From Mycobacterium kubicae (lineage in GTDB: Bacteria > Actinomycetota > Actinomycetes > Mycobacteriales > Mycobacteriaceae): DNA of 64,000 nt. Each line of letters opens with the position of its first letter. Position 1 is the first letter of the stretch. The stretch lies in contig NZ_CP065047.1 of the NCBI RefSeq assembly GCF_015689175.1, positions 5,580,001-5,644,000 of the forward strand, given 5' to 3'. Made by a program: the position numbers and the translations under genes. Below the pieces are notes generated by a model. It was not told the DNA's origin. It did no database searches and saw only the letters and a program-made list of their open reading frames with translations. Of this stretch, positions 27,432 through 60,574 are shown one piece after another.

Positions 27432-27728
27432 GACTACTCCCAGCAAATACCACTGCAAACCGGCGGGGCCGGCTCGAAAACCGTTACGAACTCTGGGCAG
27501 TCCCGATTGCTGCCGCACAACGACTATATCCTGTGGATACAGTTGTTCAGTTCGCTATTTTTGCTACATCGCCGCGGGCTTGCGTGTAGGCCGTGCTCGA
27601 CCACCACTCACCAGCGGTAACGTACTTCGCGGGCATACCCGATGACCTTGCTGTTCAAACATGGGCGTTCTAATGTCGGGACGCCTTGGCGGCGCGCAGC
27701 CAATTCCGGACGGGTGGAGGGCGCAAAG

Positions 27729-32684: not shown

Positions 32685-32720
32685 GATGACGGCCCCGGCC
32701 CGGCGGCCGGGGCCGTCATC
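32685..32720. terminator. Bidirectional terminator at the end of the heptose operon
   Basis: GATGACGGCCCCGGCC (32685-32700), loop CGGC, GGCCGGGGCCGTCATC (32705-32720): a perfect 16-bp stem between the stop codons of csbD (plus) and ugd (minus). Confidence 0.88.
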
Positions 32721-32723
32721 GTG

Positions 32724-34028
32724 TCAAAACCCTAGTGGCACACCGTTTCCCAAGTAGGCCAAGCCCGCGTCCCGCACCCGCACCGGGTCCAGCAGGTTCC
32801 TGGTGTCCACGACGACCGCCGCCGGCGCCTCCCGGGCGATGGCGCGCCAGTCCAGTTCCCGGAATGCGGGCCACTCGGTCAGCACGACGATTGCTTCTGC
32901 AGCTTTGGCGGCCCGGTACGGTTCGTCCACCGCGGTGACTCGGGACTGCTGCAATACGACAGGATCGATGCCGCGCAGTTGCGGGTCATAGCCCATGACG
33001 TGGGCGCCGGCCTGCGCCAACTCTCGGCAGGCCGCCAGTGCGGGGGAATCCCGGGTATCGCTGGTGTCGGCTTTGAATGTCAAGCCCAGCGCGGTGATTC
33101 GGCATCCCGAGAGCTCTCGACCCAGGGCATGGCGCAGCGCGGCGGCGATGCGGTCGGCTTGGGCGGCGTTGGTCGTGCGAGCCGCCTCCACTTCGGCGAA
33201 CGTGACCCCGTGGCGGCGCGCGGTGTGCACCAACGCCGCGGTGTCCTTGGGCAGGCAGGATCCGCCCCAGCCGGGACCGGGTCGCAGAAATTCCGACCCT
33301 ATCCGGCGGTCGGCGCCCATGCAGCGGGTCACGTCGTGGATGTCGGCGCCTACTCGGGAGCACAGTGTCGCCAGCGAATTGGTGTAGGAAAGCTTGACGG
33401 CCAAGAAGGCGTTGCTGGCGTATTTGGCCACCTCCGCGCTTTCCGGAGTCATCTGGAAGACGGGTTCGGTGCCCGACCCGCAGGTGCGGCTGATGACGTC
33501 GGCGACCGTTTCGTCGAGGGTGCCGACGACGAGACGATCGGGGTGCCTGAAATCGTGCACGGCCCGCCCCTCGCGTAAGAACTCAGGAGTTGACACCGCC
33601 CGAATCCCTCTGTCTCGCAGCCGCTCTGCGACCACCGACGTGGTGCCGACCGGAATCGTCGACTTCATCGCCACGATGGCGCCGCTGCAAAGCACCTCGC
33701 CGAGGCGGTCGACGGCCGAGTGCACCGCGCTGAGGTCTGGGCGGCCATCATCGGCGCTGGGCGTCGGCACGCAGACGAAGACGATGTCGCGGTCGGCCAG
33801 GGTTGCATAGTCGCCACTGAAGCGGAGCAGTCCGGCAGCGAGCCCGTCGCGCAACAGTTCTGGCAGCTCCGGCTCGTCGATCACCGGAATGCCAGATCGC
33901 AGCTGATCGACCCGCTGCGGGTCGACGTCCACAGCGACGGTGTCCAAACCTCGCTCGGCGATGCAGACCGCGGTGGTCAGTCCGACGTAGCCGACACCCA
34001 CCACACCTACCCGGACAGCGGTACTCAT
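32724..34028 (-). CDS. ugd: UDP-glucose 6-dehydrogenase
   Basis: Oxidises UDP-glucose to UDP-glucuronate with two NAD+. The 434-residue protein has the Rossmann motif GVGYVG (11-16), the Lys202 region ESAEVAKYASNAFLA, and the catalytic Cys258 in GGSCLPKD. It could be a GDP-mannose dehydrogenase, but the UDP-xylose synthase-like gene at the head of the same operon favours UDP-glucuronate. ATG 34028 overlaps the GT9 stop (ATGA). It is the last gene of the nine-gene operon. Confidence 0.88.
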   Translation of the reverse strand: MSTAVRVGVVGVGYVGLTTAVCIAERGLDTVAVDVDPQRVDQLRSGIPVIDEPELPELLRDGLAAGLLRFSGDYATLADRDIVFVCVPTPSADDGRPDLSAVHSAVDRLGEVLCSGAIVAMKSTIPVGTTSVVAERLRDRGIRAVSTPEFLREGRAVHDFRHPDRLVVGTLDETVADVISRTCGSGTEPVFQMTPESAEVAKYASNAFLAVKLSYTNSLATLCSRVGADIHDVTRCMGADRRIGSEFLRPGPGWGGSCLPKDTAALVHTARRHGVTFAEVEAARTTNAAQADRIAAALRHALGRELSGCRITALGLTFKADTSDTRDSPALAACRELAQAGAHVMGYDPQLRGIDPVVLQQSRVTAVDEPYRAAKAAEAIVVLTEWPAFRELDWRAIAREAPAAVVVDTRNLLDPVRVRDAGLAYLGNGVPLGF

Positions 34029-34981
34029 GCCGCCTCGCTCAACAGGTGATGGCTGGCTTCCAGCACACTGGCGACGCTGATCTTCTCGAGACCGGGATGC
34101 GGGGTGCCGGCGTTGGGGTCGCCGGTTTCGCCGGCCCACAGTGCGACGTGCGGTGCGGGCCCGCGAGGTCCCCAGCGACGCGGTGGTGTGGGCCCGAACA
34201 GCACCACCGAGGCCGTCGACGTGGCGGCGGCCAGGTGACCCAGGCCCGTATCCCCACAGATGACCAGCCGGCTGTCTCTGACCAAAGCGGTCAATGCCGG
34301 CAGGTCGAGTAACCCCGCCACCACCGTGGTACGTGGCAACCCTGCGGCGCGGGCGACATCGTGGGCGAGATCGAACTCGCCGGTGGACCCGGTGATCACG
34401 ATCTCGTACCCCTCATCACGCAGGGCCGCGGCCACCGCGGCGAATCTTCTGGTCGGCCACTGGCGTGCGGGTGCCGAGGCGCCCGGATGGATCACCACGG
34501 CACCGGCCTGGTCGAAGTGCACCGAAGGGCGTCTCAGCGTTACATCCGTTGCCTCGCAATGGATTCCAGCCCACTCGAGCAGGCTGCACCAACGCGTCAC
34601 TTCGTGTACTTCGGAATCCCACGGCGGACCGGCCAGGGCGGGGTGGCGGTGATGCGCATGGGTGATCACCGACTTCGGCTGCCAGGAAAGCAGGTGATCG
34701 ATGCTTTCCGGTCCGCTGCCATGCAGATTCACCGCCAGTGCCGGCGGACGCGGCTTGGAGTGCAGGTCGCCCAGGCGTTCGGTGGGCAGCAAGGCATCGA
34801 TCGCCCCGGTGAGCATCGCCAGATCCCGGTAGCGTTCGGGTGCGGCCAGCAGGATCCGGGCATCGGGATAGTGGCGGCGCAAGCCGCGCAGGGCGGGCAC
34901 CGCCGTCAGCAGGTCACCGAGACCCAGCGCCCGCAGCACCACAATGGTGTCGGGCGGGTCAGGCGGCGCCGTTACGGCCAC
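34025..34981 (-). CDS. GT9 heptosyltransferase-like protein (first of two)
   Basis: A cytoplasmic GT-B glycosyltransferase of 318 residues, family GT9 (WaaF/WaaC type). The N-terminal strand VVLRALGLGDLLTAVPALRG is the acceptor-side signature. HPGASAPARQWP and GDTGLGHLAAATSTASVVLFGPT are the conserved donor-side motifs that bind ADP-heptose in characterised members. The GTG at 34981 has GGAG 5 nt upstream and overlaps the SDR gene by 10 nt. The donor is inferred from the pathway genes beside it. Confidence 0.85.
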   Translation of the reverse strand: MAVTAPPDPPDTIVVLRALGLGDLLTAVPALRGLRRHYPDARILLAAPERYRDLAMLTGAIDALLPTERLGDLHSKPRPPALAVNLHGSGPESIDHLLSWQPKSVITHAHHRHPALAGPPWDSEVHEVTRWCSLLEWAGIHCEATDVTLRRPSVHFDQAGAVVIHPGASAPARQWPTRRFAAVAAALRDEGYEIVITGSTGEFDLAHDVARAAGLPRTTVVAGLLDLPALTALVRDSRLVICGDTGLGHLAAATSTASVVLFGPTPPRRWGPRGPAPHVALWAGETGDPNAGTPHPGLEKISVASVLEASHHLLSEAA

Positions 34982-35688
34982 GACGACTCCGTGGGGGCGC
35001 ATACCACGATTTCGCGCACCTCACACCCTATCGGTTGAGACAGCGCGAAAAGCACTGTCTCGGCGACGTTTTCGGGCTGATTCAGTTTGGCGTCCGGTGG
35101 CGGCTTGTATTGCTCGGTGCGGCCGTCGAAGAACGGGGTGTGCATGCCACCGGGAATCAGCAAAGTGACGCCCACTTCACCGGCGAGTTCGGCCGCCAGC
35201 GCCCGGGTGAAGCCGACGACGCCGAACTTCGAGGCGCAGTAGGCCGTCGCATCGCTGACCGCTTTGATGCCCAGGGTCGAGGCGCAGGTGACGATGCGTC
35301 CGTGTGTGGTCTTCAGATAGGGCAGGGCGGCGCGAATGACGGCGGCGGTGCCGACCAGGTTGACGGCGATGACCTGTTCCCATTCCTTGGCCGGTACCTG
35401 TTCGAGGGTTCCGCAGGAGTCGATGCCCGCGGCGGTGAAGACACCCGTGATCTGCCCCTGGACCCGTTCGGCGAGTGACTCGACGGCCGCCGTCACCGCG
35501 CTGGTGTCGGCCAGATCGCAGGGCGCCCATGGCACGTCGGCTGCGGGTGGCTTCTTGTCGATCACCAACGGCACCCCACCGCGGCGGGCGACCGCCGCCA
35601 CCGTGCTGGCGCCCAACCCCGAAGAGCCACCGCTGATCAGGACCGCCCCCAGTGGGTTGGTGTCGGACGTCGTGGAAAGTTCAGTCAT
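34972..35688 (-). CDS. Short-chain dehydrogenase/reductase
   Basis: A classical SDR of 238 residues. The cofactor loop is SGGSSGLG (19-26), NAG is replaced by TAAGID, the catalytic Ser is in CASTLGIK and Tyr-x-x-x-Lys is seen as YCASK. It is not HldD, which is an extended SDR of about 310 residues, so it should not be the usual heptose 6-epimerase. Inside this operon it probably oxidises or reduces a sugar or a sugar nucleotide. ATG 35688 lies one base after the hldE stop codon. Confidence 0.82.
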   Translation of the reverse strand: MTELSTTSDTNPLGAVLISGGSSGLGASTVAAVARRGGVPLVIDKKPPAADVPWAPCDLADTSAVTAAVESLAERVQGQITGVFTAAGIDSCGTLEQVPAKEWEQVIAVNLVGTAAVIRAALPYLKTTHGRIVTCASTLGIKAVSDATAYCASKFGVVGFTRALAAELAGEVGVTLLIPGGMHTPFFDGRTEQYKPPPDAKLNQPENVAETVLFALSQPIGCEVREIVVCAPTESSWP

Positions 35689-35689
35689 G

Positions 35690-37096
35690 TCAGTGCCTTT
35701 CGTCGTTGGCGCGGCCGGAGTTCGCCGCCGCGATCAAGCGGGAGGAGGAATAACCGGCAACGGTGGGCAAGATGACGACCTCGCCGCCATGACGGCGCAC
35801 GACGTCGGCTTCCGGCAGATCATCGGCGGTGTAGTCGCCGCCCTTGACCCAGACGTCGGGTCGCAGATCTTCGAGCACGCCTTCGGGGGTGGCCGCATCG
35901 AAAATTGCGACGGCGTCGACGCAGGCCAGCGCGGCCAGGACCCGGGCGCGGTCCACGTCCTGCATCACCGGCCGCCCCGGACCTTTCAGTGCGCGCACCG
36001 AGCGATCGGAATTGACCAGCACGACCAGGGCGTCACCGAGGTCACGGGCTTGGCGCAGCAGGCGGATGTGACCGCTGTGCAGCAGGTCGAAGCAGCCGCC
36101 GGTCGCGACGACGGTTCGCCCGTTGCGCCGCAGCCGCTCCGCCAAGGCGATCGCGTCAGCGCCGGTTGAGTCCTCGGCGTGCGCCGACATCGGCACGATG
36201 TCGGCACCCCTACCGGTCACCGGAGTCGAGACGGCGCTGGCCCCACCGGTGACCACGAATCGGGCGGCGTCGGCCACGGCGGCTTCAACCGCCGCGATCG
36301 CGTCGGCACCCGAACCCAGGGCCGCCGCCGCGGCGACGGAGAACCGGTCTCCGGCGCCACAGACATCGGCCGCACCCGCCACCGGCAAATCCGGCACGCC
36401 GATATGGCGGACACCGCCCTGGGCGGCGTACACCCGCGCACCGCGGGCGCCGCGGGTAATGCACACCGCGCCGGCAAGCCATTTCTGGCGCAGCACTTCA
36501 CCGGCGTCCCCCTCGTCACCACCGAAGTGGCGCGCCTCTTCCTGATTGGGCGTGACCAACGCGCAGTCCGGTACTGGTGTCGCACCGCGCGGATGCGGAT
36601 CCCACACCACCGGGATCCGGGCGGTCAGCTGGGTCAAGGCGGCCCGCACCGCCGGCAGACTCGTCACCCCGGCGCCGTAATCGGCAACGCAGATCGCCCT
36701 GGCCGCACTCAGTGCGTCGGTCACCTCCGCCGCCAGTTCACGATCCGCCGGTCGGCCGTCGCCGCGGTCCAGCCGCAGCATCGACTGGCCCCGCGCCCGA
36801 ATCCTGGTCTTGGTCACGGTGGTTCCGGTCATCGGCAGCGGCAGAACGCGCACGCCCGCGTCGGTGAGCAGACCGTGCAACCGACGCCCGGGCTCGTCAT
36901 CGGCGATGCCGGTGACCAACACGACTTCGGTTTCGGTGCGGGCGGCGAGCACCGCGGCCAACCCTGCCCCGCCCGGCCGCTGCACCGTCCGCTCGGCGTC
37001 GACCACCGGTACCGGCGCCTCGGGGCTCAGCCGCGTCGCGGTGCCTTCGACATCGACGTCGAGTATCGAATCCCCGATGATCACAAGGGGTTTCAT
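35690..37096 (-). CDS. hldE: HldE-like bifunctional heptose-7-phosphate kinase/heptose-1-phosphate adenylyltransferase
   Basis: A 468-residue fusion in the HldE order. Residues 1-300 form a PfkB kinase: GDSILDVDVEGTATRLSPEA matches the HldE start, and GAGD at 247-250 holds the catalytic Asp. Residues 325-468 form a nucleotidyltransferase with GGCFDLLHSGH (the HxGH motif at 340-343) and a later YSSSRLI. In Gram-negatives the enzyme makes heptose 1,7-bisphosphate and then ADP-heptose from heptose 1-phosphate. Both active sites look intact. ATG 37096 overlaps the gmhA stop by 4 nt. Confidence 0.88.
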   Translation of the reverse strand: MKPLVIIGDSILDVDVEGTATRLSPEAPVPVVDAERTVQRPGGAGLAAVLAARTETEVVLVTGIADDEPGRRLHGLLTDAGVRVLPLPMTGTTVTKTRIRARGQSMLRLDRGDGRPADRELAAEVTDALSAARAICVADYGAGVTSLPAVRAALTQLTARIPVVWDPHPRGATPVPDCALVTPNQEEARHFGGDEGDAGEVLRQKWLAGAVCITRGARGARVYAAQGGVRHIGVPDLPVAGAADVCGAGDRFSVAAAAALGSGADAIAAVEAAVADAARFVVTGGASAVSTPVTGRGADIVPMSAHAEDSTGADAIALAERLRRNGRTVVATGGCFDLLHSGHIRLLRQARDLGDALVVLVNSDRSVRALKGPGRPVMQDVDRARVLAALACVDAVAIFDAATPEGVLEDLRPDVWVKGGDYTADDLPEADVVRRHGGEVVILPTVAGYSSSRLIAAANSGRANDERH

Positions 37097-37662
37097 GAGG
37101 TCTCCGGGCGCAGCAGCGCATCGTCGAGCGCCATGCACAGCCCGTGCACCAACAGCAGATGGATTTCCTGCACGGTCGCTGTCGACGCCGCGTCCACACT
37201 GATCGCCTGGTCGCACATGGAGGCGAGCATGTTGGGCGCGGGCCCGGTCAGTCCCCACGTCTGCATTCCGATCTCCTGGCCGGCCTTGACCGCGGCCACC
37301 ACGTTGCGGCTGGTGCCGCTGGTGGACAGCGCCACCAGAACGTCGCCGGGACGCCCGTGTGCCCGCACTCCGCGGGCGAAGATCTCCTCTTCGCCGTAAT
37401 CGTTGGCGATCGCGGTCAACGCGGAAGTCTCCGCATGTAGGGCTATGGCAGACAACGGAATTCGTTCTTCACGGAAGCGGCCGACGAGTTCGCCGGTGAG
37501 GTGCTGGGCTTCGGCCGCGCTGCCGCCGTTTCCGCATGCCAACAACCGGCCTCCGCCGGACAGGACCTGCGCAAGGTGACGCCCCCACTCCCGCAGCCGC
37601 GGCACCTCCCCGCTGGTGCGTTCCACCGCATCGCGTAACGCGTCGAAATGCGTCTCGATCAT
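37093..37662 (-). CDS. gmhA: Sedoheptulose-7-phosphate isomerase GmhA
   Basis: Converts sedoheptulose 7-phosphate to D-glycero-D-manno-heptose 7-phosphate. The protein is a 189-residue single SIS domain. GNGGSAAEAQHLTGELVGRF (44-63) matches the GmhA phosphate loop and the zinc-binding His/Glu helix, and STSGTSRNV is the second phosphate-binding loop. Near residue 165 QEIHLLLVH supplies further active-site residues. The Shine-Dalgarno GAGGAGGAG before ATG 37662 is strong, although the gene also overlaps its upstream neighbour by 4 nt. Confidence 0.9.
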   Translation of the reverse strand: MIETHFDALRDAVERTSGEVPRLREWGRHLAQVLSGGGRLLACGNGGSAAEAQHLTGELVGRFREERIPLSAIALHAETSALTAIANDYGEEEIFARGVRAHGRPGDVLVALSTSGTSRNVVAAVKAGQEIGMQTWGLTGPAPNMLASMCDQAISVDAASTATVQEIHLLLVHGLCMALDDALLRPETS

Positions 37663-38687
37663 GGCTCTCCTCCTCTGAACCGCACCGCGGCCAGCAACTC
37701 CGCGTCGCTGATTCCGTCTAGACAGGGATGGCCCGGCACCGGGCAGACCCGGGCGCGGGTGGCGCGGCACGCCGCCTGCTGGTCGCCGAGCACGGTGACC
37801 CGCCGGGTGTACGGGCTCCACTGCGCGGCCGGCACGACGGGGGCGAACAACGACACCACCGGAGTCCCGACGGCGGCGGCCAAATGTGCCGGGCCGGTGT
37901 TGGGGACCACGACCACTCGCGCGACCGCGAACACCGCCGCCAGTTCGGCGAAGCTGGTCCGGCCGCCCAGATCCAGCGCCACGTCACCGGCCACCGCGGC
38001 GGTGAGGCCGGCCTCGTCCGGACCGCCGGTCACCACCACGCGGTACCCGGCCCCGGCCAGCGCCGCGACCATGGCCGCGCTGCGCTGTTGGCCGGGCTGC
38101 CGTGCGGGCACCGCGGCACCGGGGTGGAAGACGACAAACGGGTCAGTCCCCAGCTGTGCGGCCAGGTGCTGTGGCAGCGGGCCGACATCACGAATGCGCA
38201 GTGCACCGTCGTCCCCATCGGGCAGGGCGCATCCGGCGGTGGCCACCAGCGACAGCGCACGCTCCGGTTCCGGTATGCCGCTGGGCACCTGATGCCGCAA
38301 ATCCAGCAAGGTGCCGGGGTAGTCGACGCAGATCGCCCCTATCCAGGGCACCGACGCCATCCGCGCCAACAGCGCCAGCGGCAACGGGGACTGGTGAAAC
38401 GACGTCAGGATGTACATCCGAGCGGGCCCGATGTCGCGAAGCTGTTTGATCAACGCCTCGGCGTGCGAAGCGGTGAGTTCTGGGGAGTCGAAGTCCACCC
38501 ACGGCGCCTGCCACTCCAGGATTTCGTCAACCCCCGGCAGCAGTTCGGCAGCATCCCGACCGCGCGGTCCGACCAGCATCACCACCCGGTCGTGGCAGGC
38601 GGCAACGGCCCGCACCGCGGGGCCGGTGATCAACACATCGCCCGCACTGTCCAGGCGAGCGACGACCGCGGTACGCGCGGCCGTCAC
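37659..38687 (-). CDS. GT9 heptosyltransferase-like protein (second of two)
   Basis: A 342-residue GT9 protein. VVARLDSAGDVLITGPAVRA is the N-terminal signature, and FHPGAAVPARQP and VPNTGPAHLAAAVGTPVVSLFAP the donor-binding motifs. Near the C-terminus a cysteine-rich stretch (AACRATRARVCPVPGHPC) resembles the loop of WaaF-like enzymes. GTG 38687 overlaps the upstream stop as GTGA and its own stop overlaps gmhA. Two GT9 enzymes in one operon suggest at least two heptose residues or two acceptors. Confidence 0.85.
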   Translation of the reverse strand: MTAARTAVVARLDSAGDVLITGPAVRAVAACHDRVVMLVGPRGRDAAELLPGVDEILEWQAPWVDFDSPELTASHAEALIKQLRDIGPARMYILTSFHQSPLPLALLARMASVPWIGAICVDYPGTLLDLRHQVPSGIPEPERALSLVATAGCALPDGDDGALRIRDVGPLPQHLAAQLGTDPFVVFHPGAAVPARQPGQQRSAAMVAALAGAGYRVVVTGGPDEAGLTAAVAGDVALDLGGRTSFAELAAVFAVARVVVVPNTGPAHLAAAVGTPVVSLFAPVVPAAQWSPYTRRVTVLGDQQAACRATRARVCPVPGHPCLDGISDAELLAAVRFRGGEP

Positions 38688-40177
38688 AGCCACTCCCGCA
38701 ACACCAGCGAGACCGCGTCCTCGAGCGTGGCGGCGACGCGCGCGTGCGCGCGGGCCCGATCGACCTCCTCGGGCAGCGTGCGCGCGGTCGGCACCAGCAC
38801 CGCGCCGGCCTGGGCGGCCAACGCCGCGTCCACGTCGCCGCCGGTGTCGCCGATCATCACGCAGCGGTCCGGCGGTACCGCCAGCGCCTCGGCGGCCGCC
38901 AGCACCATCCCCGGTTGCGGCTTGCGACAACCGCACCCGTCGCTCTCCCCGTGTACGCATACCTGCCAGGAGTCGAACGGCCCGAGCACCTCGTCGACGC
39001 GGGCGTTGACCGCGGTGAGTTGGTCCGGGCTGATCAGCCCGCGCGCCACCCCGGACTGATTGGTGACGACGGCGAGCAGCACTCCGCGCTGCCGCAGCCG
39101 CGCCAGCGCCCGAGTGGCGCCGAGGGTGGGCAGCACGCCGTCGGGATCGTTGAGGTAGTGCCGGTCGACGATGATGGTGTCGTCGCGGTCCAGCAGCACG
39201 GCCAGCGGCGGATCACGCCGGGCCCGGCGAAACGTCCACTCCCCAACCAGGCGGTGCCACACGGCAACTGGTGGAATGACCGCGCTGGTAACCGTCAACC
39301 GCAGCGCTTCGGCGACGCTGCGAGGACCGCTGCGCCAGCGCCGGATGGTGAATTCCACGATACAGCCCAGCCACAGCAGCGCGCCGAGGCGGGCCGCCGA
39401 ACCGCGTCGGGCAATCCCGGCGATCAGGGTCAGTGCGGCGGCCAGGGTGGTGGCGGTGTGCGCGGGCATGCGACCGGGGCCCTCGCCGATCATGGTTCGC
39501 CAGGTTCGGCCGTACTTGCGCCGCAGCAGGGCGTTGTCGCGGTTGCCGATCTGGGCCCGCACACTGGCCCACCAGTTGGTCGCAGCGACGGGATGCGTGC
39601 ACCGCCGGCGGCCGCGCACAATCTCTCCGCCGGCCGCCACCATGCGTACCGCCAGATCGGAGTCCTCCCGGTAGGCGCGGGGAAAGCGCTCGTCGAAACC
39701 GCCTATGGCGACAAGCATGTCGCGCCGGTACGCCATGTCGGCGGTGATCCAGCGCGCCTGCGCCAGGCGCAGGGTGCGCCGTTCATCGTCGGTCGGTTGA
39801 CGCGTCGGTGTCGTGGGCACTTCAATCGTGGCCTGGGAGCCGACGGCTCCCGTCTTCTCGGCGGCTTGCAGGTCTGCGATCACGTCCGACTTCCACGTCG
39901 GATGCGGCAGCACGTCGTCGTCGAGGAAGCAGATCCAGCGTGTGGAGGCGGCGCGCCAGCCCACGTTGCGTGCGGCGGCCGGCCCGCGACCGCCGCTGCG
40001 AAGTACCCGCAGGTTCAAACCGCCGGGAAGAGGAAGGTCGTCGTCGGCCCTAGGCCGGTCATCGACAACGACCACCTCGTCCGGCTCGGGTCCCGACCCC
40101 TGCTCCAGCGCAACGAGCAAGCGGCGCAGAGACTCTCGGCCGATGGTCGGTATCACGATCGAGTAACCGTCGGTCAC
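38684..40177 (-). CDS. Fusion of a GT2 glycosyltransferase with a GmhB-type heptose bisphosphate phosphatase
   Basis: A 497-residue protein with two enzymes. Residues 1-235 are a GT2 domain (VIPTIGRESLRRL, DDD at 86-88, and the acceptor helix EDSDLAVRM). Residues 240-310 are hydrophobic and may touch the membrane. Residues 325-495 are a HAD phosphatase of the GmhB type: Asp330 and Asp332 in LLDRDDT, TNQSGVARG, the zinc ligands Cys407, His409, Cys415, Cys417 followed by RKPQPGM, and GDTGGDV. GmhB removes the 7-phosphate of heptose 1,7-bisphosphate. GTG 40177 overlaps the carbamoyltransferase stop. Confidence 0.87.
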   Translation of the reverse strand: MTDGYSIVIPTIGRESLRRLLVALEQGSGPEPDEVVVVDDRPRADDDLPLPGGLNLRVLRSGGRGPAAARNVGWRAASTRWICFLDDDVLPHPTWKSDVIADLQAAEKTGAVGSQATIEVPTTPTRQPTDDERRTLRLAQARWITADMAYRRDMLVAIGGFDERFPRAYREDSDLAVRMVAAGGEIVRGRRRCTHPVAATNWWASVRAQIGNRDNALLRRKYGRTWRTMIGEGPGRMPAHTATTLAAALTLIAGIARRGSAARLGALLWLGCIVEFTIRRWRSGPRSVAEALRLTVTSAVIPPVAVWHRLVGEWTFRRARRDPPLAVLLDRDDTIIVDRHYLNDPDGVLPTLGATRALARLRQRGVLLAVVTNQSGVARGLISPDQLTAVNARVDEVLGPFDSWQVCVHGESDGCGCRKPQPGMVLAAAEALAVPPDRCVMIGDTGGDVDAALAAQAGAVLVPTARTLPEEVDRARAHARVAATLEDAVSLVLREWL

Positions 40178-41814
40178 GGGCGCCGCCTGACCAGATAGGA
40201 ACCGATCGCCAGCATATCGATCGGTGAGCTGCCGAACACCTCGAGCGCGTCGCGCGGACTGTCCACCATGGGCCGGCCCGCTGTGTTGAAGCTGGTGTTG
40301 ACCACCACTGGAACGCCGGTGCGTTCGGCGAATCGGCTGATCGTCGCGTGCAGGCGCGGGTTGGCGGCCTGCTCGACGGTCTGGATCCGCGCGGTGCCGT
40401 CGACGTGGGTGACCGCGGGGATGCGGTTCCGCCATGCCTGCGCAACGTCGTGCACGAACAGCATGTACGGGCTGGGCAGCGGCCCGCGGGAGAAGATCTC
40501 GGCGGCGCGTTCGGCCAAAACCATTGGCGCAACGGGACGGAACTGTTCGCGCCCCTTGACCGCGTTCAGGCGTTCCAAGTTGGCCGCGGCGCGCGGGTCG
40601 GCCAGCAACGAGCGACCACCGAGTGCCCGCGGCCCGAATTCGGCACGCCCCTGAAACCAGCCGATCAACTGGTTGTCGGCCAGCGCGTCACCGACCGCAC
40701 CGGCGAAGTCCTCGGGCTGTTCATAGCGCACGGCGGCCTCGTCGAGGGTCGCCTTGATCTGCTCGTCGGACCAGCCGCGGCCCAACTGCGCCGTCGGCAT
40801 CGGCGCGATCGGCTCACCGAACCCCGCGGCCAGGCTCAGTGCGGCTCCCAGTGCGGTGCCGGAGTCACCGGCGGCGGGCTGGACCCAGATCCGGTCGAAT
40901 CCGCTTTCGGCGTGAATGCGGGTGTTGGCAACGCAGTTGAGTGCCACGCCACCGGCCAGGCACAGCGCGTCTCCGTCGGTGCGCTCGCGCAGCCAGCCCA
41001 CCAGCTCCAGCAACACGTCCTCGACCACCCGCTGCACACTGCAGGCCAGGTCGGCATGGACGGGGTCGAGCTCTGTCGTGCCGGGCGGACGTTGCGGCGC
41101 CAGCGCGTCCCAGTCGATCGGTTCGGTGCGGAATCCGCCGTCCCCGCAGGCGTAGACCTTCTCCTTGAGCTGGTCGACGAATCTGGGTCGGCCGTAGGAA
41201 GCCATCGCCATCACCTTGTACTCGTCGCTCGACCGCGCAAATCCCAGGTGTTCGGTGAGGCTTTCGTAGAACAGTCCCAGCGAATGCGGCAACGGCTGGG
41301 ACGCCAGCACGTCCAGTTTGTGATCGCGGTATACGCCGGCCAGCATCGAGGTCCGCTCCCCGCGCCCGTCGACGACCAACACGGCGGTGTCGGGGTGCGG
41401 TGAAGCCAGTGCGGTGGATGCCGCGTGCGCGACGTGGTGGCGTACGTGCTGGAAGACGGCGGGGTTCAGACCGGGTACGGCAGCAGCCAGGAACCGTGGT
41501 GCGCGTTGGGCGTACAGCGTCCGTAGGTATTCCCAGTCTCGGTCCAGTCCGGCCGGGTCGACCGGTTCTTCGTACATCAGCGCCGGGTCGTAGGAATAGC
41601 CGACGGCGTCGATGTCGGCGGCATCGACTCCGCCTTGCTCCAGGCACCACCGGATTGCGGCCACCGGCACTTCCCACGTCGAGAACGGAACGGCTTGTTT
41701 CCCGTGCTTGCGCCGCGAGAACCGTTCCTCCTCGGCGGCCGCCACCACCTGTCCATCAACGACCAGGGCCGCAGCCGGGTCATGAAAGACCGCGTTGACA
41801 CCGAGAATTCGCAC
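40174..41814 (-). CDS. Sugar O-carbamoyltransferase (NodU/CmcH family)
   Basis: A 546-residue enzyme that transfers a carbamoyl group from carbamoyl phosphate via carbamoyl-adenylate. The N-terminal Kae1-like domain has GVNAVFHDPAAALV and the iron-binding histidines in HHVAHAAST, then VVDGRGERTS. The C-terminal domain has LAGGVALNCVANTRI and FQGRAEFGPRALGGRSLLAD, both hallmark motifs. Carbamoylated heptose is known from Pseudomonas LPS, which makes heptose a reasonable acceptor here; that is inference. GTG 41814 is preceded by TAGGAGG. Confidence 0.9.
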   Translation of the reverse strand: MRILGVNAVFHDPAAALVVDGQVVAAAEEERFSRRKHGKQAVPFSTWEVPVAAIRWCLEQGGVDAADIDAVGYSYDPALMYEEPVDPAGLDRDWEYLRTLYAQRAPRFLAAAVPGLNPAVFQHVRHHVAHAASTALASPHPDTAVLVVDGRGERTSMLAGVYRDHKLDVLASQPLPHSLGLFYESLTEHLGFARSSDEYKVMAMASYGRPRFVDQLKEKVYACGDGGFRTEPIDWDALAPQRPPGTTELDPVHADLACSVQRVVEDVLLELVGWLRERTDGDALCLAGGVALNCVANTRIHAESGFDRIWVQPAAGDSGTALGAALSLAAGFGEPIAPMPTAQLGRGWSDEQIKATLDEAAVRYEQPEDFAGAVGDALADNQLIGWFQGRAEFGPRALGGRSLLADPRAAANLERLNAVKGREQFRPVAPMVLAERAAEIFSRGPLPSPYMLFVHDVAQAWRNRIPAVTHVDGTARIQTVEQAANPRLHATISRFAERTGVPVVVNTSFNTAGRPMVDSPRDALEVFGSSPIDMLAIGSYLVRRRP

Positions 41815-41823
41815 TACTGCCTC

Positions 41824-42819
41824 CTACCGTGCCATCTGCTCAGGCACCGAGACGAAGTCCCGGTTGACGTCGCTGGTGTCGCGGAACCACTGCAGCGTGG
41901 TTGCCAGCCCGGTCCGGTAATCGACTTGTGGTTCCCACCCCAGACGCTCGCGGGCCACGGTGATGTCGGGGCAGCGGCGCTGTGGGTCGTCTTCGGCGGC
42001 TGGGGTGAATTCGATCGGGCTGTCACTACCGGCCAGATCTCGGATGATCTCCGCAGCCGCCAGCACCGTCAACTCGATCGGGTTGCCGACATTGACCGGA
42101 CCACTGAAGTCGCTGCGCGCCAGCGCAATCAGACCGGCGACCGTGTCGTCGACATAACACAACGAACGGGTCTGGGCACCACTGCCGGACACGGTCAGCG
42201 GTTCACCGGCGAGTGCCTGGCGGCAGAATGTCGGCACCATCCGGCCGTCGTCGGCACGCATGCCGGGCCCGTAGGTGTTGAAGATGCGCGCCACGCCGGC
42301 ATCGACGCGGCCGAGTCGGCGATAGGCGAACACCAACGCCTCGGCGTATCGCTTGGCTTCGTCGTATACGCTACGCGGGCCCACCGGATTGACGTTGCCC
42401 CAGTAAGTTTCGCGCTGCGGATGCTGTTCGGGATCGCCGTATACCTCACTGGTCGACGCCAACACCAGCCGGCCACCACCACGCTCGGCGATCGCACACG
42501 CCGTCTCGGTGCCTGCCGACCCCACACGCAACGTCTCGATGGGTAACCGCTGGTAGTCAATCGGTGAAGCGGGTGAAGCCAGATGGAAGACGGTGTCGAA
42601 ATCGGTGCCTATCGTGTCAATCACCGCCGGATCGCAAATGTTCTGCCGGACAAGGCGATAGCCCGACCGGTCGGTCATTCTGTCCGCCGCGCCGGGCAGG
42701 CTGGTGGACAAGTCGTCAACCACTACGACTTCGACATCCGAGTCGAGCAGACGACTGCACAAGTGACCGCCCAAGAACCCGGCGCCACCCGTGATAAGGA
42801 CGCGCGATAACTGACGCAC
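41824..42819 (-). CDS. UDP-glucuronate decarboxylase (UDP-xylose synthase)-like extended SDR
   Basis: A 331-residue extended SDR. GGAGFLG (11-17) binds NAD; the catalytic part reads STSEVYGDPEQHPQ, then YWGNVNPVGPRSVYDEAKR with Tyr152 and Lys156. This run is diagnostic of UDP-xylose synthases among the sugar epimerases. With Ugd at the far end of the operon it would give UDP-xylose from UDP-glucose. I start at GTG 42819: a SigF-like -10 box ends only 9 nt before it, which places a GTG at 42825 outside the transcript. First gene of the operon. Confidence 0.87.
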   Translation of the reverse strand: MRQLSRVLITGGAGFLGGHLCSRLLDSDVEVVVVDDLSTSLPGAADRMTDRSGYRLVRQNICDPAVIDTIGTDFDTVFHLASPASPIDYQRLPIETLRVGSAGTETACAIAERGGGRLVLASTSEVYGDPEQHPQRETYWGNVNPVGPRSVYDEAKRYAEALVFAYRRLGRVDAGVARIFNTYGPGMRADDGRMVPTFCRQALAGEPLTVSGSGAQTRSLCYVDDTVAGLIALARSDFSGPVNVGNPIELTVLAAAEIIRDLAGSDSPIEFTPAAEDDPQRRCPDITVARERLGWEPQVDYRTGLATTLQWFRDTSDVNRDFVSVPEQMAR

Positions 42820-42828
42820 CGGCACTTC

Positions 42829-42854
42829 ATACCCCGCAATTCGATACTGAAACC
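42829..42854 (-). promoter_or_regulatory. Consensus SigF-type promoter of the heptose operon (GGTTT-N15-GGGTAT)
   Basis: Minus strand: GGTTT (42854-42850), 15 nt, GGGTAT (42834-42829), an exact match to the mycobacterial SigF consensus. The GTG of the first operon gene follows after 9 nt, so the mRNA would be leaderless or nearly so. Confidence 0.65.
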
Positions 42855-42856
42855 GA

Positions 42857-42881
42857 GTTTGGCGTAGGGAATCCCGGGTAG
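42857..42881 (+). promoter_or_regulatory. Divergent SigF-like promoter (GTTT-N15-GGGTAG)
   Basis: GTTT (42857-42860), 15 nt, GGGTAG (42876-42881). The GTG of the GT2 gene follows after 11 nt. It stands back to back with the heptose operon promoter. Confidence 0.4.
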
Positions 42882-42892
42882 CCGATGCAATT

Positions 42893-43783
42893 GTGGCCAC
42901 CTCCTCCGGCAACCAATCTCGAACCTCTTTCGTGATCGCGACGCGCGACCGCGCCGCGGAGTTGTCCTCCGTCTTGATACGGCTGTTGGACACCACCAAG
43001 TGTCCGATTGTGGTGGTGGACAACGACTCACATGACGATTCGGTAGCGGCCGCCACCGACATCGCCGAGCGGTCCGCGGGTCGGGTGACGGTGGTGCCGC
43101 TGGCCCGTAACGAAGGTGCGGTCGCTCGTAACATCGGTGTGGCCCACTGTGATACGCCGTATGTCGCCTTCTGCGACGACGACTCCTGGTGGTCACCGGA
43201 CGCGATCGAGCTTGCCGAATCCGTCTTCGACCGATATCCGACGGTGGCGGTGCTGGCCGCCCGAACCGTGATGTGGCCCCAACAAAAGGACGATCCGTTC
43301 GTCGCTCTGCTCGCCGATAGCCCCCTCGGGCATGACCCGCAGTTGCCTGGCCCGTCGATCCTGGGCTTCCAAGCATGCTCAGCAATGGTGCGCAGGAAGG
43401 CGTTCGAAGAGGTCGGCGGGTTCAGCCCGATCCTGCACTTCCGCGGCGAAGAGGCCTTGCTGTCCTGGGATCTGGCCGCGCACGGCTGGGATCTCTGCTT
43501 CTGCGGATCGCTGGTCGCATACCACCAGCCGTCACCGACACGGCACCCGAGCAAGGTGGAGCAGGCCCGCGTTCGGCGCAATACCGCGCTCACCGCCGGC
43601 TTGCGCCGACCTGCGAGCCGATGGCTGCGGGCAAGCGCCGAGTTGGCCTGGGCGGCGGTGCGTGACCGCGCGCATGCGGCGGCTCTGCTCGAGGCACTGG
43701 CCGCAGTGCCCGCCGTCCTGCGGGAGCGACACCCACTGCCCGAGCCGGTCGAACGCTCGGTGCGACTGCTGGAAAGCCACTGA
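42893..43783 (+). CDS. GT2 family glycosyltransferase
   Basis: A cytoplasmic GT-A enzyme of 296 residues. FVIATRDRAAEL is the nucleotide-binding strand, VVVDNDSHDDS the first acidic motif, AFCDDDSWW the DxD motif binding metal and sugar nucleotide, and FRGEEALLSWDLAAHGW the catalytic helix with the general base. The C-terminal 60 residues are Ala/Arg-rich helices. It is divergent from the heptose operon and converges with a GT4 gene (9-bp gap). Donor and acceptor are unknown. Confidence 0.85.
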   Translation: MATSSGNQSRTSFVIATRDRAAELSSVLIRLLDTTKCPIVVVDNDSHDDSVAAATDIAERSAGRVTVVPLARNEGAVARNIGVAHCDTPYVAFCDDDSWWSPDAIELAESVFDRYPTVAVLAARTVMWPQQKDDPFVALLADSPLGHDPQLPGPSILGFQACSAMVRRKAFEEVGGFSPILHFRGEEALLSWDLAAHGWDLCFCGSLVAYHQPSPTRHPSKVEQARVRRNTALTAGLRRPASRWLRASAELAWAAVRDRAHAAALLEALAAVPAVLRERHPLPEPVERSVRLLESH

Positions 43784-43792
43784 GCCACAACA

Positions 43793-45013
43793 TTACCCAG
43801 ACCGGCTGCCGGCTGCCGTCATTTCTCGCCGCGCCGGCACCACCTTTTCGTAGACGCGCTCGGTATCGGCGGCGACCCGATCCCAGGTGTAGCGGGCCTT
43901 GGCCCGCTCCCGTCCCCCGTCCCCCAGCGCCTTGCACGATTTGCGGTCTCGAAGCAGTGCGCTGATGGCCTGCGCCAGCGCATGCGGATCCTTGGGCGGC
44001 ACCAGGCGGCCGGTTACACCGTCGACGACGGTGTCGCGGATGCCGCCGACCGCGGAGGCCACCACCGGCACGCCACACGCCATGGCCTCCAGCGGCACGA
44101 TGCCGAACGGCTCATACCACGGTGTGCAGGCGACCACATCGGCCGAGCGCAACACCGACGGCATCTGGGCCCGACTGATGGCACCGACGAAATCGACCCG
44201 GTCCGCGACCCCGAGTCGACCGGCCAACCGCTGTAACTGCTGCGCATACGGATCGTCGGCCAACGCCGCCCGCTGCGGCCCGCCAACGATGACCAACTCG
44301 GCGTCGGGAATGTCGGGTAGGGCATGGAGGAGGGTTTCGAATCCTTTGCGCGGCACCAGCCTTCCGACCGAAACGATGCGTCCGCGATCACTGCGCGCGG
44401 CGGCCGGGCCTTCGGTACTGAACGCGTCGATGTCCACTCCACACGGCACGACTGACGTGCGGGACCGAGCGCGGCCCATGCGCACAAGTTCGAATACCTC
44501 GTCGGTGCTGGTGGCAGCAACCCAATCCACACCGCGGGCGAGCGTCGTCTCGAGGTCGACGCGGCAGTCCGGGCTGGTGTCGTCGACACCCTGGTGCAAA
44601 CGCTTGACCGAACCCAGCGCATGGAAGGTCTGCACCGTAGGAATGTGATGCGGTTGGGCGGCGCGCAGCGTCGCGAGGCCGGACATCCAGAAGTGGGCGT
44701 GCGCCACGTCCGGCGTTTCCGTTGCCCAGTGGTTTTCCAAGTAGTATCCGAACGCGTACATATACTGCAGGAGTTGATCTTTGGCCAATACCCGCGCCGG
44801 GCCGGCCGGCACATGAATCACGGCGTAGCCGTGCTCGGTCTCCACCCGCTCGGGCAGGTCAGGATCATCGCGGCGAGTGTAGACCACTACGTCGTGTCCG
44901 CGTCGTGCTAGAGCCGCCGAAAGCTCTGCGACATGGACGTTTTGGCCGCCGGCATCTACGCCACCCAGATGCGCCAGCGGACTGGCGTGTTCGGAGATCA
45001 TCGCGATTCTCAT
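43793..45013 (-). CDS. GT4 glycosyltransferase (MshA-like)
   Basis: A GT-B retaining glycosyltransferase of 406 residues. Near the N-terminus [16 protein letters not shown] is the loop found in MshA and sucrose-phosphate synthase relatives; the donor side has [15 protein letters not shown] and the E-x7-E motif [14 protein letters not shown]. The M. tuberculosis mshA gene lies elsewhere, so this is a paralogue with another acceptor. ATG 45013 has AAGGAAG upstream and lies 17 nt after the preceding GT gene, so the two form an operon. Confidence 0.85.
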
Positions 45014-45030
45014 GCGGGCTTCCTTCGGCG

Positions 45031-46023
45031 TCAACTCCGCTGCTCCTCGATTACTTGGTCGATCACTTCGTCCCATTGGGTCAGAAAGCGCTTGAGACCG
45101 AAACGCGTAGTGGCGAATTCGCGAGCGGCCTTGCCGGCGGCCACAGCGGCCGCATGATCGTTGAGGAACTCACGCACTCCGCTGCCGAGCGCGCACACGT
45201 CGGCACTCACCACACCTGCCTCGGTCGGCACGACGAAGGGAGCCATCGTGGTACCCACCGCTACCACCGGCATGCCCAAGAACATCGCCTCGACCAGCGA
45301 CAGCCCCAGCGAAGTCCAGCGGGCCGTGTGCAAATACACCCGGCGGCGGGCGACCTGCGTCCACAGCTGCGGGGCGGCCACATCACCACGGCCGATGACC
45401 GCGCCGTTATCTGCGCTCAGCGCTTCGGTGCCCATACCCCAGACGTCAATCTGGCCATAGGCCGACAACGGCTGCAACAAATCAGTGCCGACCGTACGGG
45501 CGCGGCGCACCGGCTCGTTGATCATGGCGGCGACCCGCGGGATGTCGCCCGTGTACAGCTGGCCCGGGTCGGCCATCCCGTGATCTATCACCTGAGTCGG
45601 CGCCGACCCGTTGTCCCACATCAGCCGGTTGAAGTCGGTGACGTGGATGAGCGGGATATCGCTTTGGTCGGCAAGTGGATGGCGACTGCGCTCGGCATGC
45701 GGGCGGGGTGCATTGTGCTCGACGTAGACAGCCGGCAAATCGACACCAGCGCGTCGACCAGCCCACTGCGCCAACAGCTCTACCTCTTCCGGGCGCTGCA
45801 GCACCACAAGATCGATGTCGCATTGCCTCAACTCTTCGAGCGCTACCTCGCGCGCGTTGGGCCACGACCGGCCGGCCAAGCCGATGCCGCCGCTGCCCCG
45901 ATCGGCAGCAACCGGAATCAGATAGCGGTGCGCCCCCGCGACGAAAGCCTGTGTCCAGGAGCCATGCACATGCCACACCAGGACATTTCTGGGCGCTTTT
46001 TGGGCAGCACCAGGCTCCAACAT
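45031..46023 (-). CDS. GT4-like glycosyltransferase
   Basis: A 330-residue GT-B-like protein. [17 protein letters not shown] opens the acceptor domain; [12 protein letters not shown] and YVEHNAPRP mark the middle; the donor side ends in [21 protein letters not shown], where the second Glu of the E-x7-E motif is kept but the first is Thr or Trp. It is clearly of the clan but distant from well-known members. A consensus SigF-like -10 box is 10 nt upstream of ATG 46023. Confidence 0.75.
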
Positions 46024-46033
46024 GGCGCTCCGA

Positions 46034-46058
46034 ATACCCTTTACGTTATTCGCTAAAC
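46034..46058 (-). promoter_or_regulatory. SigF-type promoter (GTTT-N15-GGGTAT)
   Basis: Minus strand: GTTT (46058-46055), 15 nt, GGGTAT (46039-46034); ATG 46023 follows after 10 nt. All ten conserved bases match. Confidence 0.6.
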
Positions 46059-46261: not shown

Positions 46262-46288
46262 GTTTCTCGCCCGCTGAGCATCGGGTAT
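46262..46288 (+). promoter_or_regulatory. SigF-like promoter (GTTT-N17-GGGTAT)
   Basis: GTTT (46262-46265) and GGGTAT (46283-46288) with the longest accepted spacer, 17 nt. The predicted leader to the GTG at 46336 is about 40 nt and includes a Shine-Dalgarno sequence. Confidence 0.45.
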
Positions 46289-46335: not shown

Positions 46336-47499
46336 GTGCGGATTGCGATCGTCCATGGAGATGACCTGATCGGTGATGGCTGCGAGCAGCTCGCCGCTGC
46401 GCTGGCAGGTCACGGTCACCAGGTCACCTCTTATCCGCGACGGCCCAATCACGCCTCCGCTGAAGCAGGTGCCCACCGCGACTTCGCTGTCGTCCCGATA
46501 TGCGCTGGGCCGGCCACTCCGCAGTCCGCGGCGCAAGTGCTGCCGTTCGTTGGCGACTGGGCGAGCGAGTTGGCCAGTGTGTGGTCGTCGAATCCGCCCG
46601 ACGTCGTGCACGGGCACGGCTGGTTGGGCGGCTTGGCCGCGCAGCTCGCGGCCCGGCGCCACGGCGCGCCGACCGTTCAGACTTTTCGTGGGCTGACCGC
46701 GATGTGGCGTCCGAGTCACGTCGATGCCTCACAAACCGAAAGAGCCCGCCTGGAGCCGCTACTGGTCCGGAATGCGACCTGGGTAACCGGGGGCAGCAGC
46801 GATGAGTTGATGACGCTGGCGCGATTGCGGCGTAACCGGGCAAAGCTATCCGTGCTATCGACCGGTGTCGACGTCTCACGGTTCAGCCCGGTTGGCCCAG
46901 CACTAGACCGAACGCACCATTATCGCATCCTGTGTTTTGGCCCAGATCTCTCTGGCGCCAACGGGTTTGACCGTACTATCCGCGCGCTACCCAAGCTTCC
47001 CGGCGCTGAGCTGGTTATCGTGGAGACGGCGCCAAGCGCCGACGGTGATACCGACCGAGCCGCATTGGCCGGCCTTGCCGCCCAACTGGGAGTACGCGAC
47101 CGCGTGCACTTCTTGGGCACCGTCGCCGCTGATCAGCTGCCCATGCTGTTGCGATCGGCCGATGTCGTCGCGTGCGCGCCTCGGCAAGGGGGTGACGCGA
47201 CCTCCGCCCTGCGAGCAATGGCCAGTGGGGTCGCCGTGGTCGCGGTAGCCATCGGGGCCCTGACCGACACCATCATTCACTCCGTCACCGGGCTGCTGGT
47301 TTCGCCGAACGTTCCTAGGGAGTTCGCGGACGCGTTGAAAACCCTTCAGTGTCAACCCTTTAGACGAGAAGGCATGGGCGCAGCGGGGCGGTTGCGAGCC
47401 GAGTCACGGTTCAACTGGGAACGAATCGCGCTGGACGCGCTGAATATCTACCGTCAGGCGGATTCCGTCCAGCCCCGGCAGGTGGCCAACACTGGGTAG
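46336..47499 (+). CDS. GT4-like glycosyltransferase with altered E-x7-E motif
   Basis: A 387-residue GT-B-fold protein, similar in layout to the MshA-like protein nearby: VVHGHGWLGGLAAQLAA, then TVQTFRGL, VLSTGVDVSRFSP and [12 protein letters not shown]. The segment that should read E-x7-E is RQGGDATSALRAMASG, so both glutamates are replaced. It may be inactive, regulatory, or use another mechanism. GTG 46336 has AGGAGGG upstream. It is the only plus-strand gene in this stretch and has its own SigF-like promoter. Confidence 0.78.
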   Translation: MRIAIVHGDDLIGDGCEQLAAALAGHGHQVTSYPRRPNHASAEAGAHRDFAVVPICAGPATPQSAAQVLPFVGDWASELASVWSSNPPDVVHGHGWLGGLAAQLAARRHGAPTVQTFRGLTAMWRPSHVDASQTERARLEPLLVRNATWVTGGSSDELMTLARLRRNRAKLSVLSTGVDVSRFSPVGPALDRTHHYRILCFGPDLSGANGFDRTIRALPKLPGAELVIVETAPSADGDTDRAALAGLAAQLGVRDRVHFLGTVAADQLPMLLRSADVVACAPRQGGDATSALRAMASGVAVVAVAIGALTDTIIHSVTGLLVSPNVPREFADALKTLQCQPFRREGMGAAGRLRAESRFNWERIALDALNIYRQADSVQPRQVANTG

Positions 47500-55707: not shown

Positions 55708-55732
55708 GTTTGCCGACCCGCTATCCGGGTAC
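55708..55732 (+). promoter_or_regulatory. SigF-type promoter (GTTT-N15-GGGTAC), near-leaderless
   Basis: GTTT (55708-55711), 15 nt, GGGTAC (55727-55732). The GTG at 55741 is 8 nt after the -10 box. It separates this gene from the rsb operon. Confidence 0.55.
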
Positions 55733-60549: not shown

Positions 60550-60574
60550 ATACCCCTGCGGCAATTGACCAAAC
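60550..60574 (-). promoter_or_regulatory. SigF-type promoter (GTTT-N15-GGGTAT) of the SRPBCC operon
   Basis: Minus strand: GTTT (60574-60571), 15 nt, GGGTAT (60555-60550). All ten conserved bases match. The predicted leader to ATG 60445 is about 100 nt. Confidence 0.6.

Follow-up and report, generated by a model that had tools for sequence, protein, structure and literature searches.

A mycobacterial gene cluster related to the Streptomyces cwg operon, with a predicted ADP-heptose pathway and SigF-type promoter motifs

Introduction

The cwg operon of Streptomyces coelicolor is described as a set of 12 genes (SCO6179 to SCO6190) with a predicted role in cell wall glycan synthesis, and its expression is induced by vancomycin and partly dependent on sigma-E (PMC6767563). 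As far as the available parts of the reports go, a putative deacetylase gene, SCO6178, is listed with it (PMC6767563) and is divergent from it (PMC13011467). cwgH is annotated as a phosphoheptose isomerase, cwgI as a bifunctional synthase/transferase, and cwgD as a dehydratase (PMC5839063), and cwgE is given as a putative heptosyl transferase (PMC5882110). Here, we analyze a related locus in Mycobacterium kubicae. It lies on a 64,000-nucleotide stretch of contig NZ_CP065047.1 (positions 5,580,001 to 5,644,000 of the forward strand), which we call the window, and all coordinates below are counted from its first nucleotide.

ADP-heptose, a sugar known above all from Gram-negative bacteria, acts on human cells as an alarm signal; its role as a ligand of the sensor ALPK1 is established for bacteria other than mycobacteria (PMC11573728 and PMC11461863). 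The locus described below joins three topics that stand apart in the cited literature, namely, the cwg stress operon, the ADP-heptose pathway, and mycobacterial envelopes.

Results

Organization of the locus and its relation to cwg

The preliminary description of this DNA had placed nine genes in one operon, and gene calls and family profiles confirmed both the operon and the families assigned to it. The minus strand between 32724 and 42819 carries a run comprising uxs, carb, a gene for a GT2-GmhB fusion, gt9a, gmhA, hldE, sdr, gt9b, and ugd. Most of the junctions had been described as 4-nt overlaps; with the starts chosen here, this holds for five of the eight, the other three being a 10-nt overlap, a 1-nt gap, and a 9-nt gap. 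The nine-gene run is part of something larger. Three upstream genes (gt2p, gt4, and gtx; 42893 to 46023) are conserved together with the nine, so the conserved unit comprises twelve genes and extends to 46023. The locus is 65 to 72% G+C in 2-kb bins, and nowhere in the window is the G+C content higher than in its middle (36 to 40 kb); hence, it does not form a low-G+C island.

The locus was compared with the cwg-type operon of Streptomyces coeruleorubidus (L137). The L137 genes, in the order uxs, carb, GT2, HAD, GT9, gtx, GT4, gmhA, hldE, GT9, GT2, GT2, fit the cwg annotations, and for each of the twelve the window encodes a matching protein or domain with 42 to 65% identity. Upstream of the L137 operon lies a divergent gene of the polysaccharide deacetylase family, and the published cwg sigma-E promoter is matched there with 6 mismatches in 29 positions, compared with 10 to 12 in six shuffles; a search of L137 for this promoter with three or fewer mismatches returned nothing. 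The gene-by-gene matches and the partly kept order in L137 show that the window locus is homologous to a cwg-type operon, and the best reading is that it is a mycobacterial cwg variant. Given this match, the idea of a new kind of system is not supported. We consider it probable that this variant makes an envelope glycan that is carbamoylated and contains heptose and, probably, xylose.

Predicted enzymes of ADP-heptose synthesis

The hldE-like gene (35690 to 37096; this and all other features are on the minus strand unless a plus is given) encodes a predicted heptose 7-phosphate kinase and heptose 1-phosphate adenylyltransferase, with a PfkB kinase followed by an HldC-type nucleotidyltransferase in a single chain. 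It is co-linear with Escherichia coli HldE, to which it is 35% identical across 471 alignment columns, and its adenylyltransferase domain passes the TIGR02199 cut-off of 181.5 bits marginally (181.6 bits; 184.3 in another scan). We checked whether the two domains would instead cluster with other carbohydrate kinases and cytidylyltransferases. The best profiles were heptose models, not those of ribokinase or other cytidylyltransferases, and the two best PDB matches were a cytidylyltransferase and D-beta-D-heptose 7-phosphate kinase. The sequence HxGH is present in all 112 aligned homologues and GAGD in 111 of them, and we take these to be the catalytic motifs.

The gmhA-like gene (37093 to 37662) encodes a predicted sedoheptulose 7-phosphate isomerase and is the only gmhA in the whole genome. 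In alignment, the protein retains the zinc ligands His, Glu, Gln, and His, at the positions given in the available part of PMC5387315. A GmhB phosphatase domain had also been noted, and it is indeed present, with the correction that it is fused to a GT2 glycosyltransferase (38684 to 40177). This HAD domain aligns to E. coli GmhB and scores 122 bits against the beta-type GmhB model versus 52 against the alpha type. Its DxD, Cys/His/Cys/Cys, and GDxxxD residues are invariant in 9/9 aligned homologues; presumably, they play the roles usual in GmhB-type HAD phosphatases, the Cys/His/Cys/Cys set binding zinc. A predicted model of the fusion, made from a 9-row alignment, was of moderate quality (predicted local distance difference test [pLDDT], 76.7; predicted template modeling score [pTM], 0.53), its domains being usable and their mutual arrangement not. 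The top PDB folds for one half were D,D-heptose 1,7-bisphosphate phosphatases (target template modeling [TM] score, 0.78 to 0.82), and the other half matched GT-A glycosyltransferases. Three long helices modeled between the domains (residues 237 to 317) could touch the membrane.

The predicted enzyme set thus appears complete up to ADP-D-glycero-D-manno-heptose, with GmhA-like, HldE-like, and GmhB-like members. The earlier claim of a complete ADP-heptose set of the HldE (beta/ADP) type in a mycobacterium therefore stands as a prediction, as far as the D,D form. The best genome-wide match to HldD scored 96 bits against a cut-off of 274.6, among 14 weaker or related short-chain dehydrogenase (SDR) matches in all. 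Since there is no HldD at the cut-off and no 6-epimerase is evident, the predicted donor is ADP-D-glycero-D-manno-heptose, and the D,D form is likely. No HddA-type, HddC-type, or GHMP kinase gene was found within the operon, to which that search was confined.

Whether the HldE-like protein would load heptose with AMP or with another nucleotide was considered from its motifs. Nucleoside triphosphate promiscuity of heptose nucleotidyltransferases goes with a motif, (F/L)XXGRSTT (PMC11573728 and PMC11461863), and a commentary adds that the motif is not strictly needed for it (PMC11461863). Enzymes of this kind that have the Arg motif, and some that lack it, are promiscuous in those reports, and the motif Arg occurs in 49 of the 74 nonmycobacterial actinobacterial HldE sequences among the 112 aligned, all of which would favor a CDP- or UDP-heptose product. 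Against this, all 38 mycobacterial sequences, that of the window included, have Tyr in place of the Arg (GYSSS in 35 and GYSTS in 3), so that the STT is changed as well. Because Tyr with SSS or STS replaces the Arg motif in mycobacteria, ADP-heptose is the likelier product, and we regard CDP- or UDP-heptose as improbable.

If these assignments hold, GmhA would convert sedoheptulose 7-phosphate to heptose 7-phosphate, and the HldE kinase domain would convert the latter to the 1,7-bisphosphate. The 7-phosphate would then be removed by the GmhB domain of the fusion protein, and the second HldE domain would form ADP-heptose.

Glycosyltransferases and the probable fate of the heptose

Two further genes, gt9a (37659 to 38687) and gt9b (34025 to 34981, with GTG at 34981 or ATG at 35002 as the start), encode members of the heptosyltransferase family GT9. 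Both exceed the gathering score of PF01075 and keep the Asp aligned with Asp13 of E. coli WaaC, which we assume to be catalytic; neither reaches an NCBIfam heptosyltransferase cut-off. The best PDB match of gt9b is ADP-heptose lipopolysaccharide (LPS) heptosyltransferase II. These two are the only GT9 proteins in the genome. E. coli glycosylates proteins from ADP-heptose, according to the available part of PMC11461863, and the GT9 proteins could in principle heptosylate surface proteins in the manner of the autotransporter heptosyltransferase. We think this very unlikely, as the six glycosyltransferases, the UDP-xylose supply, and the carbamoyltransferase point to an oligosaccharide and gt9b is nearest to LPS heptosyltransferases.

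The matches of uxs (41824 to 42819) clearly class it with the UDP-glucuronate decarboxylases (UDP-xylose synthases), enzymes of this kind being the four top PDB hits at 324 to 326 bits and the next hit scoring 118. ugd (32724 to 34028), of the UDP-glucose/GDP-mannose dehydrogenase family, is a predicted UDP-glucose 6-dehydrogenase (395.9 bits to TIGR03026, above the cut-off; 333.7 bits to the TuaD-type model, below it). carb (40174 to 41814) is assigned by profile and sequence matches to the NodU/TobZ-type O-carbamoyltransferases, and sdr (34972 to 35688) is assigned by its family profile to the classical short-chain dehydrogenases. gt2p (42893 to 43783, plus strand) is a divergent GT2 gene, recognized by profile. 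gtx (45031 to 46023) is GT4-like, and its predicted model (pLDDT, 85.7; pTM, 0.83; 9-row alignment) matches GT4 enzymes of the GT-B fold at a TM score of about 0.7. gt4 (43793 to 45076) has MshA as its best NCBIfam model (253 bits, below the cut-off), which says little, because n46, a neighboring GT4 outside the conserved set, also is best matched by MshA.

In the scheme that we favor, Ugd would supply UDP-glucuronate and UXS would convert it to UDP-xylose, gt9a and gt9b would each add one heptose, the GT2 and GT4 enzymes would add the remaining sugars to a cytosol-facing acceptor encoded outside the locus, and the carbamoyltransferase would cap the glycan. In a narrower form of our reading, the product of the locus is a glycolipid, or a known lipid or lipoglycan of the envelope (e.g., a phosphoinositide-anchored one) that is decorated in the cytosol, rather than a wall-linked polymer. 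That no clear membrane protein, polymerase, or ligase was recognized among the locus genes is in its favor. So is the closeness of gt4 to MshA, an inositol-phosphate glycosyltransferase, a point weakened by the like match of n46. The GT9 proteins of LPS synthesis use a lipid acceptor, which tells the same way. On the other side, the locus contains neither an acyltransferase gene nor a lipid gene, and the Streptomyces operon is predicted, in the available text of PMC6767563, to serve a wall glycan. Overall, we give the glycolipid form a substantial but lesser share of the probability. A common export, polymerase, or ligase gene might have been hidden among the unassigned open reading frames (ORFs), and 2,712 of these from 108 loci were compared all against all; no family was present in more than 25 loci. 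The ten representatives scanned were an aldehyde dehydrogenase, a sigma factor, a pyruvyltransferase-like protein, an amine oxidase, two GT2 proteins, PhoU, a thiamine pyrophosphate enzyme, a luciferase-like protein, and one without a match.

SigF-type motifs precede the three units

SigF consensus sequences are given as GGWWT-N16-17-GGGTAY and GTTT-N17-GGGTAA in the part of PMC7693655 available. Motifs of this type lie before each of the three units of the window locus. They were counted within 150 bp of gene starts as a loose motif, GTTT-N14-17-(C/G)GGTA, and a strict one, GTTT-N15-17-GGGTAY. The site before the nine-gene operon (42829 to 42853) reads GTTT-N15-GGGTAT and occurs at 16 of 29 mycobacterial loci by either definition; that before gt2p (42857 to 42880, plus strand; GTTT-N15-GGGTA) occurs at 25/25 loci in the loose form. 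The site of gtx-gt4 (46034 to 46058), 10 nt from the ATG and leaderless-like, occurs at 22 of 28 loci in the loose form and at 19 with GGGTAY. An alignment of mycobacterial loci shows the latter as a conserved GTTT...GGGTAT block some ten bases from the gtx ATG. For the loose motif, the means for shuffled sequences were 0.1 or less. Elsewhere in the mycobacterial loci, the loose motif was found before carb in 4 of 30 and before none of gt4, gt2had, gt9a, gmhA, hldE, sdr, gt9b, and ugd. Because such motifs stand at the starts of all three units, the locus is likely induced by general stress. Sigma-E-like GGAAC-type promoters were considered and rejected for mycobacteria, their counts (5/28 and 2/29, with shuffled means of 2.1 and 1.4) not being above chance.

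Across the 6.0-Mb genome, GTTTN15-17GGGTAY has 40 sites, versus 15 for the reversed control, and two of the 40 are at the starts of uxs and gtx. A further site is located about 210 bp upstream of an ORF that has a HATPase domain (anti-sigma-like) and overlaps a sigma gene of the SigBFG family, a layout that we take to be that of the known rsbW-sigF pair. Since the window holds six such sites in 64 kb versus 0.16 expected, its neighborhood may be rich in SigF-controlled genes. Three more of the window's sites are at 27635 to 27660 (minus), 55708 to 55732 (plus), and 60550 to 60574 (minus).

In other actinobacteria, loose sites were found before carb at 19 of 38 loci (four of them with CGGTA only) and before uxs at 7 of 39, the shuffled means being 0.17 and 0.07. 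The loci with SigF/SigB-type sites upstream of carb are L074, L076 to L082, L084, L086, L087, L091, L098, L101, L112, L117, L121, L132, and L134. These carb sites suggest an old general-stress control of the locus, and it seems that stress control is general and that the sigma factor has changed.

Distribution and descent

The locus had been taken as special to one species, which proved not to be so: HldE was found in 94 of 396 Mycobacterium genomes (E <= 1e-60), in 69 of 296 Actinomycetes genomes, and in many other actinobacterial families. The 94 include three genomes that give only parts of hldE (G116, G559, and G600) and three whose proteins are only 35 to 38% identical and are distant paralogues (G050, G547, and G614). 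The HldE-like proteins of these last three (L056, L166, and L165) form a separate branch and have a different gene neighborhood.

Scored by TBLASTN (E <= 1e-20 and 50% identity), all twelve genes are present at 21 of 30 mycobacterial cluster loci, and hldE, sdr, and gt9b are present at all 30. Mycobacterium persicum (L067) is a named carrier of all twelve. The nine incomplete loci comprise one that ends at a contig edge (L045), one with Ns (L064), and seven that lack one to three genes. A gene replacement considered for L064 was rejected, as the region is a run of Ns. At 80 named actinobacterial loci, a lower bound on their number, with short loci scored as misses, gmhA was matched at 80/80, GT4 at 72, GT9a, GT9b, and GT2/HAD at 71 each, SDR at 68 (a few only 27 to 34% identical), gtx at 64, and uxs and the carbamoyltransferase at 44 each. 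Internal stop codons that appeared in HldE of some genomes mostly vanished with another query and were read as alignments that probably overran the natural end.

The protein already is named HldE in public databases for several mycobacteria. Among the best 120 of 7,824 matches, HldE is named in M. malmoense and M. gordonae, and a 147-member protein cluster bears the name "Mycobacterium av," most likely M. avium. One genome with all twelve genes (G630; locus L163) has an HldE 99% identical to that cluster.

GT9 follows HldE. In 198 Mycobacterium genomes, GT9 was found at E <= 1e-8 in 56, comprising all 47 HldE-positive genomes and 9 HldE-negative ones; at E <= 1e-15, it was found in 47/47 HldE-positive genomes and in 1 of 151 HldE-negative genomes (G095). 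These counts show strong GT9 matches in the genus to be tied to the predicted HldE pathway, as is partly expected from linkage.

The patchy presence in the genus would also fit a different destination for the sugar. ADP-heptose-dependent antibiotics, septacidin and hygromycin B, are made by Streptomyces (PMC10221265 and PMC10948575, in the parts available), and the pathway might likewise feed a secreted natural product. However, no polyketide synthase, nonribosomal peptide synthetase, or nucleoside-assembly family is among the locus genes, which encode six glycosyltransferases. Moreover, a similar gene set occurs in many families, and the Streptomyces counterpart is an envelope-stress target in the literature available. 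We therefore judge a natural product to be an unlikely end point and retain the envelope glycan.

A tree was inferred from 120 HldE rows by a quick maximum-likelihood method, with the SH-aLRT as its only support measure and a single long E. coli outgroup. In it, the 30 mycobacterial cluster rows, the window's among them, form one clade (SH-aLRT, 100) that adjoins rows from Pseudonocardiaceae and Nocardia. Apart from this clade lie the three distant mycobacterial paralogues and the second HldE of some other actinobacteria. The topology fits either an early presence followed by many losses or a single gain, and nothing in it points to HldE having been imported repeatedly in recent times. Eight loci from Arthrobacter, Microbacterium, Curtobacterium, and their kin (L089, L106, L108, L110, L119, L120, L129, and L138) have a second HldE a few kilobases from the first. 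It is 35 to 39% identical to that of the window, and seven copies, those of sufficient length to be placed in the tree, share a single branch with a Parafrankia row.

Flanking features

The preliminary description had closed the operon with a 16-bp terminator stem. 3' of ugd (32685 to 32720), there is a hairpin whose 16 bp pair perfectly around a 4-nt loop (-45.6 kcal/mol; z = -6.8 versus shuffled sequences), but it has no U-tract and was not reported by the terminator scan. The sigma-70 and terminator scans of the window were not above chance. At the other end, a further GT4 gene (46336 to 47499, plus strand), with a SigF-type site upstream at 46262 to 46288, adjoins the locus; it was left out of the twelve because it is rarely matched at other loci. 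A 96-nt tRNA-Trp call (43711 to 43806, minus) overlaps the ends of two coding genes and is probably spurious. The second contig of the same genome (L147; 30.6 kb) is near-identical to Mycobacterium intracellulare plasmids over 92% of the 20 kb compared.

Discussion

Several observations weigh against the reading of the window locus as a cwg variant that makes a heptose-containing envelope glycan. The HldE kinase domain scores 137.7 bits against TIGR02198 (cut-off, 345) and the full-length protein scores 276.6 bits against NF008454 (cut-off, 521), and for this reason the protein was filed as HldE-like. GmhA is below TIGR00441 (167.1 of 209.45 bits) and NF010546 (181.9 of 276), and the GmhB domain is below NF006506 (122.3 of 178) and TIGR00213 (78.3 of 149.6). 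HldE and GmhA of L137 and L163 also fall under the NCBIfam cut-offs, except for the L137 adenylyltransferase domain, which is over. The promoter motif was first noticed in the same loci that were later used for counting; it is missing at 6/28 gtx and 13/29 uxs starts, and GGGTAY is present at only 5/25 gt2p sites. The spacer is 15 nt nearly throughout, compared with the published 16 to 17, and the first G is sometimes missing. L137 was used as a stand-in for S. coelicolor, the window locus does not keep the cwg 12-gene order, its counterparts being rearranged, and in the available text of the cited papers the cwg product is a predicted glycan only. In family scans, none of the locus genes was recognized as encoding an initiating transferase, flippase, polymerase, or ligase. 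No clear membrane protein emerged from a crude hydropathy scan: uxs, carb, GT2-GmhB, gmhA, sdr, and gt2p have no segment above 1.6, and gt9a, hldE, gt9b, ugd, gt4, and gtx have short stretches of 1.6 to 1.85 that resemble Rossmann cores. Finally, 302 of the 396 Mycobacterium genomes have no HldE match.

In a search of literature titles and abstract openings, with subscription literature largely outside its scope, we found no description of the locus in mycobacteria and none of an ADP-heptose product of cwg. What is new here is the SigF-type motifs at three unit starts. The analysis also yields a concrete pathway prediction for a cwg-type locus, by which cwg gains a concrete predicted sugar donor. 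If the prediction is true, current envelope models omit a glycan of many environmental and opportunistic species, and one can test whether mycobacteria are sensed through ALPK1; by analogy with other bacteria, such mycobacteria might conceivably be visible to ALPK1, as the preliminary description had ventured. A wider proposal is more tentative, and we hold it with less than even confidence. In it, roughly one mycobacterial species in four, with the M. avium group included, would make ADP-heptose and use it for a carbamoylated envelope glycan of heptose and xylose under a SigF switch. This glycan would be the cwg product that actinobacteria have in common, and mycobacteria, which lack LPS, would carry a stress-raised ALPK1 ligand.

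The locus can be set beside four described systems. With the Gram-negative route (GmhA, HldE, GmhB, and HldD, followed by WaaC and WaaF), it shares the activities as predictions, an E. coli-like didomain HldE, and the GT9 Asp; it differs in having no HldD over the cut-off, no LPS genes in the locus, and GmhB fused to GT2. With the GDP-heptose route (GmhA, HddA, GmhB, and HddC), it shares the GmhA and GmhB families, whereas the operon is without a GHMP kinase or HddC-type gene and its GmhB domain prefers the beta type. The NDP-heptose synthetases of septacidin and hygromycin B and the tridomain class, as given in the sources available, likewise place ADP-heptose outside Gram-negative bacteria. 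Unlike those systems, the window locus has a didomain HldE, a separate GmhA, and a glycosyltransferase operon around them. Closest is cwg itself, in which eleven genes have a counterpart in the window (uxs, carb, GT2, HAD, GT9, gtx, GT4, gmhA, hldE, GT9, and GT2, the GT2-GmhB fusion being counted as two), together with control by a stress sigma factor, predicted in the mycobacterial case. The window differs from cwg in that GT2 and GmhB are fused, SDR and Ugd are added, one terminal GT2 rather than two is present and now is divergent, gtx-gt4 has moved upstream as its own unit, and SigF-type motifs replace those of the sigma-E type.

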